DNA of 64,000 nt from Kaistia defluvii (GTDB lineage: Bacteria; Pseudomonadota; Alphaproteobacteria; Rhizobiales; Kaistiaceae), in the NCBI RefSeq assembly GCF_026343955.1, contig NZ_JAPKNI010000004.1, positions 496,001 through 560,000 of the forward strand. The letters are read 5' to 3'. The position numbers and the translations under genes were made by a program. The notes beneath the pieces were generated by a model. That model was not told the DNA's origin. It made no database searches and worked only from the letters and a program-made list of their open reading frames with translations. Of this stretch, positions 7,783 to 39,145 are shown one piece after another. Positions within the stretch are counted from its first letter, which is position 1, and each line of letters begins with the position of its first letter.

Positions 7783-9249
7783 ATGGACGATTTTTCCATG
7801 CTGCCAGCTCCCGCTGACGATGATCACTTCCACGAGGAGTGCGGCGTGTTCGGCGTGTTCGGACACGACGACGCGGCCGCGCTCACCGCGCTCGGCCTGC
7901 ACGCCCTCCAGCATCGCGGCCAGGAGGCCGCCGGCATCGCCGCCCATGACGGCCGCCAGTTCTCGATCGAGCGCCACATGGGCCTCGTCGGCGACAACTT
8001 CACCCGCAAGACGGTGATCGACCGGCTGCCCGGCCGACGCGCCATCGGTCACAACCGCTACGCCACCACCGGCGGCGTCGGCCTGCGCAACGTCCAGCCT
8101 ATGTTCGCCGAATTCGCCGGCGGCGGCTTCGCCGTCGCCCATAACGGCAACCTGACCAATGCGATGACGCTGAAGCGCGAACTGCAGCGCCGCGGCTCGC
8201 TGTTCCAGTCGACCTCCGACACCGAGACGATCATCCACCTGATCGCCACCTCGATCCACGGCCAGTTGCTCGACCGCTTCATCGACGCGATCCGCCGCAT
8301 CGAGGGCGCCTATTCGCTCGTCGCTCTGTCTGAAAAGAAGATGATGGGCTGCCGCGATCCGCTCGGCGTTCGCCCGCTCGTGCTCGGCAAGCTCGAAAAC
8401 GCGCACATCCTCGCCTCCGAGACCTGCGCGCTCGACATCATCGGCGCCGACTATGTGCGCGACATCGCTCCCGGCGAGGTCGTCATCATCACCGATGAGG
8501 GCATTGAGAGCTTCTTCCCGTTCGAACGCCAGCCCTCGCGCTTCTGCATGTTCGAATATGTCTATTTCGCCCGGCCGGACTCTTCCGTCGATGGACGCGG
8601 CGTCTATCACGTCCGCAAGCGCATCGGCGCGGAACTGGCGCTGGAAAGCGGCATCGATGCGGACGTCATCGTGCCCGTGCCGGATTCCGGCGTCCCCGCC
8701 GCGATCGGCTATGCCGAGGCTGCCCGCATCCCGTTCGATCTCGGCATCATCCGCAACCACTATGTCGGCCGCACCTTCATCGAACCGACCGACGCCATCC
8801 GCCATATGGGCGTCAAGCTGAAGCACAACGCCAATATGCGCGTGCTCGAAGGCAAGCGCGTCGTGCTGGTCGACGATTCGATCGTGCGCGGCACCACCTC
8901 GATGAAGATCGTGCAGATGGTCCGCGACGCCGGCGCCGCCGAGGTGCACATGCGCATCGCCAGCCCGCCGACCAAGGATTCCTGCTTCTACGGCGTCAAC
9001 ACGCCGGAGAAGTCGAAGCTGATCGCCTCGCATATGTCGGTCCAGGAAATCGCCGATTTCATCAAGGCCGACAGCCTCGCCTTCCTCTCGATCGACGGGC
9101 TCTACCGGGCCGTCGGCGAGGCGCAGCGCAATGGCGACGCGCCGCAGTTCTGCGATGCCTGCTTCACCGGCGATTACCCGACCCGGCTGGCCGATTTCGA
9201 AGATCGCGGCAAGGTTCAGCCGCTGAAGCGACTGGCCGAAGCGAGCTGA
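7783..9249 (+). CDS. purF: Amidophosphoribosyltransferase (PurF)
   Basis: First committed step of purine synthesis: PRPP plus glutamine to phosphoribosylamine. The N-terminal nucleophile glutaminase domain starts at Cys20 (HEECGVFGVFG), so a 19-residue propeptide must be removed. The conserved GHNRYATTGG and AHNGNLTN follow. The C-terminal PRTase domain has the PRPP loop VVLVDDSIVRGTTS near residues 360-373. The cysteines in SPPTKDSCFYGVNTP and QFCDACFTGDYP suggest the metal-containing, Bacillus-like type. At 488 residues it is full length. A compound hairpin follows the stop. Confidence 0.97.
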   Translation: MDDFSMLPAPADDDHFHEECGVFGVFGHDDAAALTALGLHALQHRGQEAAGIAAHDGRQFSIERHMGLVGDNFTRKTVIDRLPGRRAIGHNRYATTGGVGLRNVQPMFAEFAGGGFAVAHNGNLTNAMTLKRELQRRGSLFQSTSDTETIIHLIATSIHGQLLDRFIDAIRRIEGAYSLVALSEKKMMGCRDPLGVRPLVLGKLENAHILASETCALDIIGADYVRDIAPGEVVIITDEGIESFFPFERQPSRFCMFEYVYFARPDSSVDGRGVYHVRKRIGAELALESGIDADVIVPVPDSGVPAAIGYAEAARIPFDLGIIRNHYVGRTFIEPTDAIRHMGVKLKHNANMRVLEGKRVVLVDDSIVRGTTSMKIVQMVRDAGAAEVHMRIASPPTKDSCFYGVNTPEKSKLIASHMSVQEIADFIKADSLAFLSIDGLYRAVGEAQRNGDAPQFCDACFTGDYPTRLADFEDRGKVQPLKRLAEAS

Positions 9250-32949: not shown

Positions 32950-35160
32950 TCAGGATTGCAGGTTCAGGGCCGAGCGGCCCGGCTCGAAGCTGGGCAGTTC
33001 CAATTCCGGCAGGATGCGCCGGCTTTCGCCCAGCCGGGCCAGCAGGGCGGTGATCTCCTCGGCCGGCATCGGCTTGGCCAGATAATAGCCCTGCACATAT
33101 TCGCACTGCAGAAGGCGAAGGAGCTGCAACTGCTCGACCGTCTCGATTCCCTCGGCGACCACGGCAATGTCCATCGCGTCGCCAAGCGCGATCATCGACT
33201 GGATCAGCGCGTTGGCGGTGGGATTGGCGCCGAGTTCGGAAATGAAGGACTTGTCGATCTTGAGCCAGTCGAACGGGAACTGGCGCAGATAGCCGATCGA
33301 CGAGAACCCTGTGCCGAAATCGTCGAGCGACAGGCCGAAACCCATCGACTTCAGGCGGGCCAGCTTGCGCTTGGCGATCGTCGGGTTGCGAACCAGGAGG
33401 CCCTCGGTCAGTTCGAGCTTGAAGCGGTTCGGGACGACATCGTGCCGGCGCGCTATGGCGCCGAGATCGTTGGCGAAGCTCGGATCGCGCAACTGGGCCG
33501 GCGAAACGTTGATCGAGATCCGCAGACCCGGCCAGTCGACCATGTCCTGACAGGCGCGCTGGAACACGAACTTGCCGATATCGTGGATGGCGCCGGTCTC
33601 TTCGGCGACGGGAATGAACTCGGCCGGCGAGACGCGACCAAACTCCTTCGAGTCCCAGCGCACCAGCGCCTCGAGCGAAACGACGGCGAGGTCGCTGGCC
33701 CGCACGATCGGCTGGTAGACGACCGACATCTCGTTGGCTTCGATGGAACCGCGCAGCGCCATGCCGAGCCGCTTGCGATGCAGCGCCCCGGTCTCGAGGC
33801 CGGAGTGATACGGCACCGCGTCGCGCTCGGCGGCATTCTTGGCCTGATACATGGCGAGGTCGGCGCGGCGAAGCAATTCTTCCGGCGACACGTCGATCCC
33901 GTCGGAGACCGCATAACCGACCGCAGCCGTGACCTGAAACTGGAAGCCGGTGACGGTAAAGGGCTGGTCGAGCGCATGCACCATGGCGGAGGCGACCCCG
34001 GCGACGGCGTCGAGGGCCGGCCGGCCGGTCAGCGCCACGGCGAATTCGTCGCCGCCGACGCGGGCAAAGCGCGCATCCGACGGCAGGATCATCGAAAGCC
34101 TTTCGGCCAGCATGCCGACCAGCACGTCGCCGCCCTGGTGTCCGATCGAGTCATTGACCGATTTGAAGCCGTTGATGTCGAGATAGATGATCGCCGCCTC
34201 GCCCCGGGCGCAGGCCTCCTCGAAAGCGGCGCTGGCGCTCAGCTCGTTGAAGCCGAAGCGGTTGGTGAGGCCGGTCAGGCTGTCGGTGCGGGCGGCCTCG
34301 ATGGCCTGCTGCTCGCTCAGCGCCTGCGACAGCGCCAGGCGGCGGGCGCGCAGCACGGTCCACATCGCGATCAGGCAGAAGATCAGCAATCCGCCGGCGA
34401 TCGGCGCCACCACGTTGCGCAGCACGGCGAATCCCGGCGTCGGCGGCGTCCAGACGAGGCGTCCGATCACCTTGCCGAAGATATCGCGAATCTCCGGAAA
34501 CTCATGCGTCGTCTCGTTCGCCTTCACGGGCTCCAGGCTCAGATCGTTGATGAGGAAGCTGCGCCCCAGCTCGGAAAGGCGCTGGTTGTTGAGATAGAAG
34601 CCCATGGCCAGAACCGGCAGGGTCGACGGATCGACCGAGCTGGCATTCGAGACGGGCGCGATGCGGGACACGGCGAAAAGCAGGGTGCCGGCAGGCGTCT
34701 CGACATAGCTGGAGCGGGCCGCATTGTTCTCGACCGGTGCGGTGCGGATCAGGTCCTCGATCTTGCCGATCAGCGCCGGCGACATGACGGAGGCGGTGTT
34801 CGGCGCCTCCGGCGGCGTCCACCAGCCATATTTGACCTGGTGATCGGGCGACAGGATGACCAGAAAATCGGCGATCTGGGTGTCGACGATACCCGTCCCG
34901 ATATTGGCCTCGATCCAGGCTGCGTCGCCGCGCTGGTAGGCGTCATAGGCCTCCTCCCACCACGAATAATCGTTGGCGAGCCCCTGGACGCGCGTGTGCA
35001 TGGCGTCGATGCCACCCATGACCATGGTGCGGGTCTGCGCGGCAGCCTGGTCATTCTGGCGATACGCCATCCAGACCACGCCGGCGATGACGGTCACGAC
35101 CGTCACCAGGATTCCGGCGACCAGGTTGAATGTTATGCGCCCGGCGATCGGGTGAGACAT
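32950..35160 (-). CDS. CHASE4-GGDEF-EAL membrane protein (c-di-GMP turnover), copy 2
   Basis: 736 residues with the same domain order as the gene at 29384-31564. N-terminal helix ~11-32, CHASE4-type sensor with NDYSWWEEAYDA (63-74), second helix ~247-270, GGDEF intact (ARVGGDEF, 369-373), EALVRW (497-502), and DDFGTGFSS (613-621). The ending GYYLAKPMPAEEI is typical of EAL domains. No RxxD I-site. The two sensors differ clearly, so the paralogues likely read different ligands. Confidence 0.92.
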   Translation of the reverse strand: MSHPIAGRITFNLVAGILVTVVTVIAGVVWMAYRQNDQAAAQTRTMVMGGIDAMHTRVQGLANDYSWWEEAYDAYQRGDAAWIEANIGTGIVDTQIADFLVILSPDHQVKYGWWTPPEAPNTASVMSPALIGKIEDLIRTAPVENNAARSSYVETPAGTLLFAVSRIAPVSNASSVDPSTLPVLAMGFYLNNQRLSELGRSFLINDLSLEPVKANETTHEFPEIRDIFGKVIGRLVWTPPTPGFAVLRNVVAPIAGGLLIFCLIAMWTVLRARRLALSQALSEQQAIEAARTDSLTGLTNRFGFNELSASAAFEEACARGEAAIIYLDINGFKSVNDSIGHQGGDVLVGMLAERLSMILPSDARFARVGGDEFAVALTGRPALDAVAGVASAMVHALDQPFTVTGFQFQVTAAVGYAVSDGIDVSPEELLRRADLAMYQAKNAAERDAVPYHSGLETGALHRKRLGMALRGSIEANEMSVVYQPIVRASDLAVVSLEALVRWDSKEFGRVSPAEFIPVAEETGAIHDIGKFVFQRACQDMVDWPGLRISINVSPAQLRDPSFANDLGAIARRHDVVPNRFKLELTEGLLVRNPTIAKRKLARLKSMGFGLSLDDFGTGFSSIGYLRQFPFDWLKIDKSFISELGANPTANALIQSMIALGDAMDIAVVAEGIETVEQLQLLRLLQCEYVQGYYLAKPMPAEEITALLARLGESRRILPELELPSFEPGRSALNLQS

Positions 35161-35461
35161 GTCGTGTCCATCTCAATTGGCGACATGCAAACTTACGCAG
35201 CAGCCCTTTTATGCCGATTTAACTCTATGCGGGGCATTTTAGATAAATACCGGTCGCGAAGCCAGTTGACGGCCCTTCCGGCTGCCGATGTCGCGCGTTC
35301 GAACCGAATTCCGATTCTGATTCCGTACTTTCCGGCATGGGGTAAGCTTGTGAAAGAGTTCAGTAAATTTGAATATAATATGGTTGACAAATCGTCGAGA
35401 TTGTCGCCAATTTCACTACAAAACTGTAGATATCAAGTCTGGGCTATGTTGCGGGGGCAAT
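35161..35461. other. AT-rich divergent promoter region
   Basis: This 301-bp gap between divergent genes is far richer in A/T than anything around it, most of all 35340-35430. It contains a perfect -10-like TATAAT (35374-35379) and TTGACA (35384-35389), the latter within an imperfect dyad GACAA-N10-TTGTC (35386-35405). The two do not form one well-spaced promoter, so the real start sites are unclear. No coding potential. Confidence 0.45.
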
Positions 35462-36397
35462 ATGAACTTCCCACCGGATGAGGATTCGGCTGGGATGGCG
35501 TCGTCTGCCGCCGGCTGCCCCTTTCACACTGCCGCGAAGGCGCCGTCGGACAGTGAATTCGAAGATTGGCTTCAGACGGATCTGCGCTGCTCCGCGGGGA
35601 AACGCGAGTTTCAGCTCGGCCGATACACGGTTGCGCATGTCCGCAACGGCTATCAATTCCTCCAAGCCTTGAACACATTCCGGCTGGATGTGGAAGATTA
35701 CCGCAAGACCGGTTTCCTGGCGATCGTCCCATCCTGCGAGACCTTCGACAATTCGGTCGATGAGCTTCGCACGCTCGGCCAGGTCATGGTGGATGCCGGC
35801 CTCGCCGAAAGCGCCGGCGCGCTGATCAACAGCCAGACGGTCGCGATCCCGTTCGACGTCGTCTGTCCTGTGACGGGCATTCCGACCGTCTACGAGTTCT
35901 TCCCGGTCGCCTTCTGCCCCCATGCCCGCTCGCTGGCCGATCCGCTCTACGATCCGGCGCTGAGCACGCCCTTCCTCGCCATCAACACGACGTCCGATGC
36001 GTTCGCCTTCGGCATGCTGGTGCGCGACCTCAGCCTGCGCCACTTTCGCGTTCCGCCACACGAGATCCGCGACCGGAGCGAACTGGAGCGGCTGCTGCAC
36101 AAATGCGCCGTCGTCTGGCAGAATATGTCCGCCAATACGATCACCGGCTACAACAAGGTTTCCGAGATTCCGGCGCGCGCGGTGCATCTCTCCGCCGACC
36201 GGCAGACCTGGACCGCGCCGCACAACGACCCGGTGTTTGCCGAGATGGTGAAGGAGCCGCACGATCACGAAATGCCGGCGCTCTATGCCAATCGCCTGTG
36301 CGAGCGCTGGATCGCCGCCTTATTTGACGGGAAAGCCCTCGAGGCCGCCCGGGATGGACAGTCTGGCGGCACGCCCGCCTTCGATTTCAGGAAGTGA
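35462..36397 (+). CDS. Protein of unknown function, first gene of SET/MFS operon
   Basis: 311 residues with no signal peptide or membrane segment. I do not recognise a family. Seven cysteines are at 19, 43, 92, 135, 152, 215 and 280; two are CP pairs in the best-conserved-looking stretch (VVCPVTGIPTVYEFFPVAFC, 133-152). Histidines cluster at 267-269 (PHDHE). A metal or Fe-S site is possible but unproven. ATG 35462 follows a weak GGGGG stretch; an ATG 11 codons later is an alternative. The next gene starts 4 bp after its stop, and the third overlaps the second, so the three are surely co-expressed. It could be an enzyme, or the substrate or partner of the SET protein. Confidence 0.75.
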   Translation: MNFPPDEDSAGMASSAAGCPFHTAAKAPSDSEFEDWLQTDLRCSAGKREFQLGRYTVAHVRNGYQFLQALNTFRLDVEDYRKTGFLAIVPSCETFDNSVDELRTLGQVMVDAGLAESAGALINSQTVAIPFDVVCPVTGIPTVYEFFPVAFCPHARSLADPLYDPALSTPFLAINTTSDAFAFGMLVRDLSLRHFRVPPHEIRDRSELERLLHKCAVVWQNMSANTITGYNKVSEIPARAVHLSADRQTWTAPHNDPVFAEMVKEPHDHEMPALYANRLCERWIAALFDGKALEAARDGQSGGTPAFDFRK

Positions 36398-36401
36398 TCC
36401 G

Positions 36402-36815
36402 ATGAGCTACACCAACGAAGACGTCATCGAGGTTCGCTCGATCAGCGACGATCACCAGACGATCCATGCCAAGACCACCGTGCCGAAGGACACCCTGCTC
36501 GGCTTCTTCGACGGCAAGGCGATGCTGATCGACCTCGACAAGCAGGACGAGCTCGACGACTACTGGTGGCGGCAATCGGTCCATCTGAAGCTGATCGGCC
36601 GCAAGCTGCTGTGCCTGCTGCCGATGGAAGAACCGGCCGGCATCGATTTCCTCAATCACTCCTGCCATCCCAATACGCGCGTCGAGGACCAGCTCTACGT
36701 CTTCGCCGATCGCGAGATCGCGGCGGGCGAGGAACTGACCGCCGATTACCGGACCTTCGACCTGGTGCCGCAGGGCATCAAGTGCTGGTGCCCCGAGCCC
36801 AACTGCGAGATCTGA
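36402..36815 (+). CDS. SET-domain protein (predicted protein-lysine methyltransferase)
   Basis: 137 residues, almost only a SET domain. It has LNHSCHPNTRV (84-94), the SAM-binding NHSC-PN motif, GEELTADY (109-116) with the catalytic Tyr, and a post-SET zinc-type cluster Cys128, Cys130, Cys135 (KCWCPEPNC). SET proteins usually transfer methyl groups from SAM to lysine side chains of proteins. The N-terminal part is very short, so substrate recognition may come from a partner. AGGAAG lies 7 bases before ATG, within the end of the preceding gene. The stop overlaps the next start as TGATG. Bacterial SET proteins are uncommon and rarely have known targets. Confidence 0.85.
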   Translation: MSYTNEDVIEVRSISDDHQTIHAKTTVPKDTLLGFFDGKAMLIDLDKQDELDDYWWRQSVHLKLIGRKLLCLLPMEEPAGIDFLNHSCHPNTRVEDQLYVFADREIAAGEELTADYRTFDLVPQGIKCWCPEPNCEI

Positions 36816-38011
36816 TGCCCATCCCCGACAAGACGAAGTCCGCCGCGCGCACCCGCTACTGGCGCGTCGCGGGCGTCCTCGTGCTGATCGGCATCGAGGC
36901 GCTGCTGTTTGGCTATTCCTATCCGTTCTTCTCGCTCGCGCTGGAGAAGAAGGGCATCGCCACCTGGCTGATCGGCCTCAACGCGTCGATCGCCGGCGCC
37001 GGCATCCTGATCTTCGGGCCGTTCGTGCCCTGGCTGATCGACCGCATGGGCCTGCGCCTGCTGGTCGCCGCCCAGTTCGCGCTGTCGCTGGCCTCGTTCG
37101 CCGCCATCTTCGCCTTCGACAACATCGCCGTCTGGTTCATCGCCCGCTTCGTCATGGGCACCTGCTTCTCGGCGCTCTGGACCACCACCGAAATCTGGCT
37201 GAACGGCGTGGTCGACGACCGCAATCGCGGCCGCATCGTCGGTGCCTCCGGCACGCTCTATGCCGCCTGCCAGTTCATGGGCCCGCTGCTGCTCTCCGGC
37301 ACGGGCTCGACCGGCAGCCTCCCCCTCATCGCCGCCATGGTGCCGCTGGCGATCGGCGTCGCGGTGGCGCTGTCGATCCGCTCGGCGGTAGGCGAGGTCG
37401 AGGACGAGGAAGAGAGCGGCGACGTCCATACGCTGCGCATGTCGCTGACGCTGGCCGGCAGCCTGATCGCCGCCGCCTTCCTGACCGGCATCGGCGAAAC
37501 CGCGATGCAGAGCCTTCTGCCGCTCTACGGTCTCGCGCATGGCCTGAACGACGCCGGCGCCTCGCGCCTGGTCGCGGTGTTCAGCCTTGGCGAAGCCGTG
37601 CTGATCGTCGCGCTCGGCTGGTTCGCCGACCGGCATGGCCGCCGGCTGACGCTGATCGGCACGGCCGGCCTCGCCGTCGTCAGCACGCTCGCCTTCCCCT
37701 TTGTCATGGACAAGACCTTCCTGCTCGAACCGGTGGTGTTCATCGCCGGCGGCACGGTCTCGGGCCTCTACACGCTGGGCATCGTGCTGATCGGCCAGGA
37801 TTTTCGCGGCCAGCGCCTGGCGGTGGTCTCGACCGGCTTCGCCATGGCCTATTCGGCAGGCTCCGTCATCGGCTCGACGCCGATCGGCTTCCTCATGGAC
37901 CTCTTCGGCGCCGAGGCCCTGCCCGTCACCGTGGCGGTCGGCTTCGTCGCGCTGCTGATCTTCCTGGTGAGGCCGGGCCAGAAGAAGGCGGTGGAAGTGT
38001 CGGTGGAGTGA
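36815..38011 (+). CDS. MFS transporter
   Basis: 398 residues with about 12 transmembrane segments and the MFS motif A-like loop VPWLIDRMGLRLL after helix 2, plus GWFADRHGRRLTLIG in the second half. A charged central loop (GEVEDEEESGDVHT) splits the two six-helix bundles. It resembles YcaD-type/drug-efflux MFS proteins. The start ATG lies in the SET gene's stop codon, so it is translationally coupled. Substrate unknown; the coupling suggests export or uptake of something tied to the first two genes. Confidence 0.87.
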   Translation: MPIPDKTKSAARTRYWRVAGVLVLIGIEALLFGYSYPFFSLALEKKGIATWLIGLNASIAGAGILIFGPFVPWLIDRMGLRLLVAAQFALSLASFAAIFAFDNIAVWFIARFVMGTCFSALWTTTEIWLNGVVDDRNRGRIVGASGTLYAACQFMGPLLLSGTGSTGSLPLIAAMVPLAIGVAVALSIRSAVGEVEDEEESGDVHTLRMSLTLAGSLIAAAFLTGIGETAMQSLLPLYGLAHGLNDAGASRLVAVFSLGEAVLIVALGWFADRHGRRLTLIGTAGLAVVSTLAFPFVMDKTFLLEPVVFIAGGTVSGLYTLGIVLIGQDFRGQRLAVVSTGFAMAYSAGSVIGSTPIGFLMDLFGAEALPVTVAVGFVALLIFLVRPGQKKAVEVSVE

Positions 38012-38137: not shown

Positions 38138-39145
38138 ATGAAGATTCGATGGCTCGCCTTTCTGCTCGTCCTCTGCATCCTTGCTGCAGGACATGCCCAT
38201 GCCCAAGCCTGGGAAGACGTCAATCCGGCAGCGGCGGGCTGGTCCGTTGAAAAGCTGGAGGCGGCCCGGCAGGAATCCCGATCGCTTAAGCCGACAGCGC
38301 TCATGATCGTTCAGGACGGACATGTGATCGCCCAATGGGGTGACGTTTCCCGTAAGGTGGAGATGGCATCCGTTCGCAAGAGCTTGCTCAGCGCACTCTA
38401 CGGCAGCGCCGTAGCAGAGAGGCGTATCGATCTTTCAGCCAGCCTCGCCGAACTTGGTATCGACGATAAAGCTCCTCGTCTGACGAACGAAGAGAAAACC
38501 GCCACGGTTCGGGATCTACTGACATCGCGCTCGGGCGTCTATCATCCGGCGGCCCACGAGACAGCTGACATCAAGCGCAAGCGGCCTGCACGCGGGAGTC
38601 ACCCGGCAGGATCGTTCTGGTTTTACAACAACTGGGACTTCAATGCTCTGGGCACGATCTACCGGCAGCAGACCGGGGAAGACATCTTCGCGAGCTTCGA
38701 ACGCCGCATTGCGGCACCGATAGGCATGGAAGACTTCTCGGCCAGAGACGGCCGCTATGCGGTGGAGAAACTCTCCGAGCACCCCGCGTATCCGTTCCGG
38801 CTCAGCGCCCGCGACGCTGCCCGTTTCGGCCAGCTTTTTCTGAACGAAGGCAAGTGGGGCGACAAGCAGGTCATCCCAGCGTCGTGGATCAGGGAGTCTA
38901 CGGCTGCGTACTCGTGGGCGAAGCGGATACGGCAGGGCTATGGCTACATGTGGTGGACATTGCCTGAGGAAACATGGGGACCCGATGCCTTTTACGCTTC
39001 CGGCTACGGGGGGCAAATAATCGCTGTCGTGCCGTCGAAGCGGCTCGTCGTCGTGCAGACGGTGGACCTGAAACAGAACCCAAAAGGGGTACGAACGAGC
39101 GCATTCCTTGACCTGATGAAAGAGATCGCTGTCGCTTCACCGTGA
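38138..39145 (+). CDS. Secreted serine hydrolase, beta-lactamase/PBP4-like (class C type)
   Basis: 335 residues, exported: MKIRWLAFLLVLCILAAGHAHA is a signal peptide. The active-site tetrad starts with SxxK at Ser78-Lys81 (MASVRKSLLSAL); the second motif is Tyr-x-Asn in FWFYNNWDFNALG, and GYGGQ takes the place of KTG. The family (PF00144) covers esterases, D-aminopeptidases and lactamases; the degenerate third motif argues against a true beta-lactamase. GAGAGGAGA lies 6 bases before ATG. Its codons show more A/T in third positions than the neighbours, and imperfect direct repeats lie on both sides, suggesting acquisition. Confidence 0.85.
   Translation: MKIRWLAFLLVLCILAAGHAHAQAWEDVNPAAAGWSVEKLEAARQESRSLKPTALMIVQDGHVIAQWGDVSRKVEMASVRKSLLSALYGSAVAERRIDLSASLAELGIDDKAPRLTNEEKTATVRDLLTSRSGVYHPAAHETADIKRKRPARGSHPAGSFWFYNNWDFNALGTIYRQQTGEDIFASFERRIAAPIGMEDFSARDGRYAVEKLSEHPAYPFRLSARDAARFGQLFLNEGKWGDKQVIPASWIRESTAAYSWAKRIRQGYGYMWWTLPEETWGPDAFYASGYGGQIIAVVPSKRLVVVQTVDLKQNPKGVRTSAFLDLMKEIAVASP

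Follow-up and report, generated by a model that had tools for sequence, protein, structure and literature searches.

The window (the whole stretch of 64,000 nucleotides of Kaistia defluvii DNA that was analysed) carries three closely packed genes, which encode a protein of no named family, referred to here as P1, a SET-domain methyltransferase and a transporter of the major facilitator superfamily (MFS), respectively (Table 1). An earlier note, made from the sequence alone, had described three tightly packed, co-directional genes behind an unusually AT-rich promoter region. The coordinates, the 4-bp gap between P1 and SET, and the 1-bp overlap at the SET-MFS junction (TGATG) have all been verified, and only 0.06% of the 301-bp windows in the stretch are as AT-rich as the region upstream of P1. 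Within this region, the element TATAATAyGGTTGAC (35374-35388) is conserved in all six upstream regions that were aligned, out of 25 loci. In a locus from a Rhizobium MAG (L053), where P1 and SET are divergent, the promoter between them (7800-7910) shows several ATGCAT/GCATGC palindromes by eye, which are perhaps operators.

Table 1. Genes and sequence features of the P1-SET-MFS locus, in window positions
Feature	Position	Strand	Remarks
AT-rich divergent intergenic region, likely promoter	35161..35461	+	GC 0.47, against 0.66 for the window
P1	35462..36397	+	311 aa; in no named family; tentatively proposed, from its model, as a distant heme-thiolate (YqcI/YcgG-like) enzyme
C43 codon of P1	35588..35590	+	invariant residue; candidate axial heme ligand
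C135 codon of P1	35864..35866	+	within invariant CPVT motif
SET-domain methyltransferase	36402..36815	+	137 aa; accessory gene; PF00856
MFS transporter	36815..38011	+	398 aa; PF07690; 1-bp overlap with SET stop codon

The transporter matches PF07690 with an E value of 1.6e-26 (93.5 bits against a cut-off of 33.4). It resembles PRK03633, whose model it matches at 3.5e-21, but with 75.7 of 361 bits it lies far under the NCBIfam cut-off of that model. The SET protein matches PF00856 at E 5e-12 (46.6 bits against a cut-off of 22.4) and is the single SET match in the host genome. Its NHSC, E-x3-D-Y and post-SET CxC...C motifs are present, and N85, H86, C88, D115, Y116, C128, C130 and C135 are invariant in the 10 rows of its alignment (A3). 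SET enzymes usually also carry an N-terminal GxG motif for S-adenosylmethionine (SAM); in the window protein this position reads HQT. The earlier description of complete SAM and post-SET motifs thus stands for the post-SET, NHSC and E-x3-D-Y motifs, while the SAM part is incomplete. The protein has only 137 residues, and so little room for substrate-recognition parts.

P1 contains the seven cysteines described earlier, and three CP motifs (at C19, C135 and C152) instead of the two that had been counted. It matches no Pfam family at E<=1, its best NCBIfam match is sub-threshold (E 0.12), and no credible relative was found for it by sequence in the PDB (best E 0.94, and 1.4 with a profile). The YqcI/YcgG family, PF08892, was matched by none of 14 P1 proteins at E<=5. 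The statement that P1 falls in no recognised family is borne out by the want of a credible Pfam, NCBIfam or PDB sequence match, and its homologues belong to no family of known unrelated function. Within the open-licence literature (titles and abstract starts, a sequence search of papers being impossible), no paper was found on the P1-SET-MFS unit, nor any joining Kaistia with a bacterial SET domain or FPCPxxA with heme.

Conservation in P1 was read from alignment A1, which contains the window P1, L020 and 12 of the other 18 loci from the near-host genome search, and from A2, comprising the window and 14 of 15 named-genome loci; the locus left out of the latter is L050, in whose genome the P1 frame holds a stop. 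A further alignment, A5, holds the window and 12 of the 15 named-genome loci. C43, which lies just before a helix in the structure model, and the CPVT motif at C135 are invariant in both A1 and A2. A CP motif in a terminal tail is found in all 25 P1 proteins, before the C43 position (N-terminal) in 21 and near the C-terminal end in 4; the P1 proteins of L035 and L037 have an additional CPY about 55 residues before the end. The CP-bearing tail of the window P1 is modelled with very low confidence.

Among 101 genomes close to the host that were searched, 19 carry P1: it occurs in all 14 listed genomes of the host's genus, in 4 of 14 listed genomes from other genera of the host's family (Kaistiaceae), and in G066, a carrier from another family of the same order. 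A scan of named genomes gave 15 P1 loci (Kaistia species, Prosthecomicrobium, Bauldia and others), of which 12 had already been counted and 3 were new. A class-wide draw of 385 genomes yielded P1 in four, the window's own and three Tistrella, and a phylum-wide draw of 398 in the window's own only; none was found in viral contigs. The P1 genome set examined therefore numbers 25 (19 + 3 + 3), and the family looks narrow and patchy in the sampled genomes. At one locus of the set (L036, in G016) the P1 frame is broken by a TGA stop, reflecting either decay or an assembly error, and the window SET is also without a match in that genome.

Examination of the neighbouring genes revealed that an MFS gene adjoins P1, or is separated from it only by SET, in all 25 P1 genomes (L026 being counted although its MFS gene is cut by the contig end), which supports the earlier reading of a linked unit with a transporter. 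At the host-family loci and at L051 and L052, the MFS gene lies downstream of P1 on the same strand; at L053, in the three Tistrella genomes and in G066, the two genes are divergent. The Tistrella and G066 transporters share only 26-30% identity with that of the window, and orthology there is therefore unproven. SET is present at 14 of the 25 loci: in 13 it separates P1 from MFS, and in L053 it accompanies the MFS gene, both being divergent from P1. Of the P1 homologues examined, on whose linkage the earlier note had made its reading depend, all are linked to MFS and a little over half to SET. When the window SET was searched in 17 of the 25 whole genomes, six matched, each at the P1 locus, and no match was obtained anywhere in the 11 genomes with SET-less P1 loci. 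SET is thus not an obligate partner of P1, as had been supposed, and has been rejected in that role.

A P1 tree covering 23 of the 25 genomes (with one of the three Tistrella) requires three changes of the SET label, a number as low as which was reached in none of 500 shuffles. When rooted on the SET-less Tistrella and G066 as outgroup, the simplest history comprises one gain and two losses, the latter in a six-genome clade of the host's genus and in G016. A single acquisition of SET, followed by its loss in some relatives, is probable. The conserved core of the unit is P1 with MFS, and SET is patchy and optional.

Two genes flanking the unit in the window were considered as members and rejected. 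A divergent CHASE4-GGDEF-EAL gene (32950-35160) adjoins P1, and its counterpart lies next to P1 in each of the other 17 host-family loci, as well as in L051 and L052; it is placed outside the unit because P1 occurs without this gene in L053, Tistrella and G066. Between MFS and a KUP transporter lies a beta-lactamase-family serine hydrolase (38138-39145), which is excluded because it was matched in the window alone among the 25 sources compared; it may be a recent insertion.

The SET protein was compared with known structures. A single-sequence PDB search gave an H3K36-type enzyme as the best match (E 7e-9), followed by BurB (8.7e-7), and in a profile search lysine enzymes of the H3K36/H3K4 type came first (E 3e-12) with BurB tenth (E 1e-7), so that the window SET is nearer to lysine methyltransferases than to BurB by profile. 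The match to histone-lysine SET methyltransferases (NSD, SETD2, KMT2) extends over the full length, including the post-SET cysteines; the window protein differs from them in its small size and its place in a bacterial operon. This full-length profile alignment and the tight packing of the genes are consistent with the first idea of the earlier note, here taken as regulation of the unit by SET through methylation of a lysine, in P1 or in some other protein of the cell. However, 11 of the 25 genomes keep P1 and MFS without a match to the window SET, SET has been lost twice on the simplest history, and in L053 it accompanies MFS on the side away from P1. As SET is missing from 11 of 25 P1 loci and its history reads as one gain and two losses, a core function in the methylation of P1 is unlikely, and regulation of the unit by protein methylation in general is considered improbable.

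BurB is described as a small bacterial SET protein, the methionine S-methyltransferase of the DMSP/malleicyprol pathway, and its methylation of methionine shows that small molecules can be substrates of SET domains (PMC12542666). The window SET is likewise small, stand-alone and bacterial, and by counting along the alignment its H86 and Y116 fall on His93 and Tyr124 of BurB. The BurB match covers only residues 78-136 of the window SET, and N-H-S-C in the latter stands against L-H-S-C in BurB.

The genomic surroundings of other SET genes also bear on the substrate. A SET match at E<=1e-10 was recorded in 10 of the 385 genomes of the class-wide draw, two of the nine non-window ones being close relatives, and in no plasmid at the same threshold; P1 is absent from both regions fetched around the close relatives (L092 and L093). 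In L092 (6351-12098), which holds the nearest SET relative without an adjoining P1, the gene stands among those for an Asp/Asn beta-hydroxylase, a DegT aminotransferase, an FAD (DAO family) oxidoreductase, a class IV aminotransferase and an EamA transporter, possibly a small amino-acid pathway. This context leans towards small-molecule substrates for SET. No comparable enzyme neighbours were seen by eye around SET in L093.

The AlphaFold model of P1, built from 15 sequences, has a mean pLDDT of 83. When it was compared with the PDB by Foldseek, the top four matches were AglA chains (E 0.009-0.018, probability 0.97-0.99), and nothing but AglA chains appeared at E<0.1, the fifth match having an E of 0.47. 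The superposition on AglA is poor (TM 0.31-0.43, rmsd 11-12 Å). Against a viral structure library, the best E value was 0.088. A second, poorer model was built from a 270-residue fragment of the L053 homologue, which is 43% identical (pLDDT 79, weak at residues 51-90); AglA is absent from the best 50 of its 329 matches.

AglA is presented as the structural prototype of the YqcI/YcgG heme enzymes, with a four-stranded sandwich and Cys44 as heme ligand (PMC12866846), and ChmN with its Cys47 changed is reported to lose heme (PMC10849742). The likeness of P1 to this family (AglA, ChmN, GntA, DcsA; PF08892) lies in an invariant cysteine that opens a helix and falls in the same register, and the pattern C-x2-G-x6-G is common to P1 (from C43) and AglA (from C44). 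Both also have a CP motif near one end, the PF08892 matches ending in CPF or PPF. The element order of P1 (helix, C43, helix, strand, helix, strand, helix, two strands and, later, a long helix) is roughly AglA-like as far as the latter is described; P1 has elements beyond those described for AglA, whose complete order is not in the description compared. The proteins differ in several respects. P1 has 311 residues against 274 for the AglA chain, and most PF08892 rows of alignment A4 read C-x-G-A, unlike the C-x2-G of P1. Where PF08892 has F-P-C, P1 has L-x-C, so that F-P is absent although C43 is invariant and in register. P1 also differs from the YqcI/YcgG proteins in its adjacent MFS gene, and in that its heme binding is putative.

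Profile comparisons were made with A4, comprising 11 of 15 PF08892 matches, to which four more from a later search were added; of the P1 rows, L051 and L052 were truncated where their stop codon lies. Alignment of P1 to PF08892 members by hhalign paired C43 with the FPC cysteine, at an E of only 0.05-0.08. In two sets of 150 trials each, 11 and 14 shuffled profiles scored as high, the reversed profile outscored the real one (22.2 against 19.0), and E was 0.29 for P1 against the SET alignment, where no relationship would be expected. In the HMM control, 6.9% and 4.7% of shuffles scored as high as the best real row, and for most rows the share was far larger. When the P1 and PF08892 profiles were compared in ungapped windows of 12 and 18 columns (57,428 and 54,530 pairs), after leaving out rows more than 80% identical to a kept row and columns less than half filled, C43 on the ligand cysteine ranked first; it ranked 10th and 235th with 25- and 50-column windows. 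The next independent diagonal places E145-F-F of P1 on A-F-F, collinear with the first at 102 versus 108 columns on. The top diagonal alone is not unusual, as shuffles reach it in 170/400 and 143/400 cases, and the collinear pair is borderline (35/400 and 20/400).

Owing to these sequence controls, the poor superposition and the unrepeated result of the second model, the chances that P1 is a distant relative of the YqcI/YcgG proteins are held to be about evenly balanced, and P1 is not filed as a member of PF08892. The weak or non-significant sequence controls and the failure of the second model to repeat the AglA match suit a P1 that is an enzyme of an unrelated fold, with the similarity to AglA arising by chance. 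With the better model, however, the four AglA chains alone reach E<0.1, and the ligand cysteine falls in register with C43; an unrelated fold is regarded as a real possibility of somewhat less than even probability.

PF08892 was matched in none of the 61 relatives searched. Two Tistrella genomes encode a YqcI/YcgG domain with an AMP-binding (adenylation) domain after it in the same frame (L089:1501-3627 and L090:1501-3627), within open frames of 6502 and 8199 codons, respectively. A heme N-oxygenase domain is here joined to what looks like a giant peptide synthetase.

The main rival to an oxygenase-exporter mechanism is a stress or detoxification cassette, in which P1 would inactivate or sense an electrophile or oxidant and MFS would pump it out, SET being a side addition. 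Such a cassette is favoured by homologous MarR regulators, each with a cysteine-rich tail, at two distant P1 loci: one lies next to P1 (L038:6458-7066) and the other beyond MFS (L053:5133-5741), and both end in a C-terminal CRLC...CP...CP cysteine cluster. Relatives of these regulators on plasmids (6 records examined out of 8) point the same way, being adjoined by haloalkane dehalogenase in three, DUF417 in two and arginase in one; one of the two with DUF417 also has a carboxymuconolactone decarboxylase. A search with the L053 regulator at E<=1e-8, however, matched only one of nine P1 genomes (G066), that of the window being among the eight without a match, and biosynthesis can likewise be under MarR gene control. 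The cassette is rated as rather unlikely, though distinctly less so than the regulation of the unit by protein methylation.

Taken together, the unit is tentatively interpreted as a core of P1 and an MFS exporter with SET as an optional tailoring enzyme, P1 being a divergent heme-thiolate oxygenase of the YqcI/YcgG type; this reading as a whole is credited with slightly less than an even chance. P1 would bind heme through C43 at the helix start and would oxidise, most likely N-oxygenate, a small amine or amino-acid-like substrate. No redox partner gene was recognised in the unit, and electrons might come from a general ferredoxin. Where present, SET may methylate the product or its precursor or substrate, and the MFS protein would export the resulting small molecule. 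The other suggestion of the earlier note, that a small molecule is made and exported by the unit, is the one favoured here. A bolder version, for which the probability is rather low, would make P1 the founder of a distinct heme-thiolate oxygenase branch that lies outside PF08892. Its pathway would be a minimal one of oxygenase, optional methyltransferase and exporter, with SET methylating an N-oxygenated small molecule and not a protein.

If P1 does bind heme via C43, thiolate-heme oxygenases would extend beyond the P450s and the annotated YqcI/YcgG family, and would include proteins missed by the profile libraries used. The natural presence and absence of SET beside a constant pair of genes further offers a clean comparison, by which the target of a bacterial SET protein becomes directly testable: strains that have SET are expected to yield a methylated form of the product that SET-less strains make without the methyl group.
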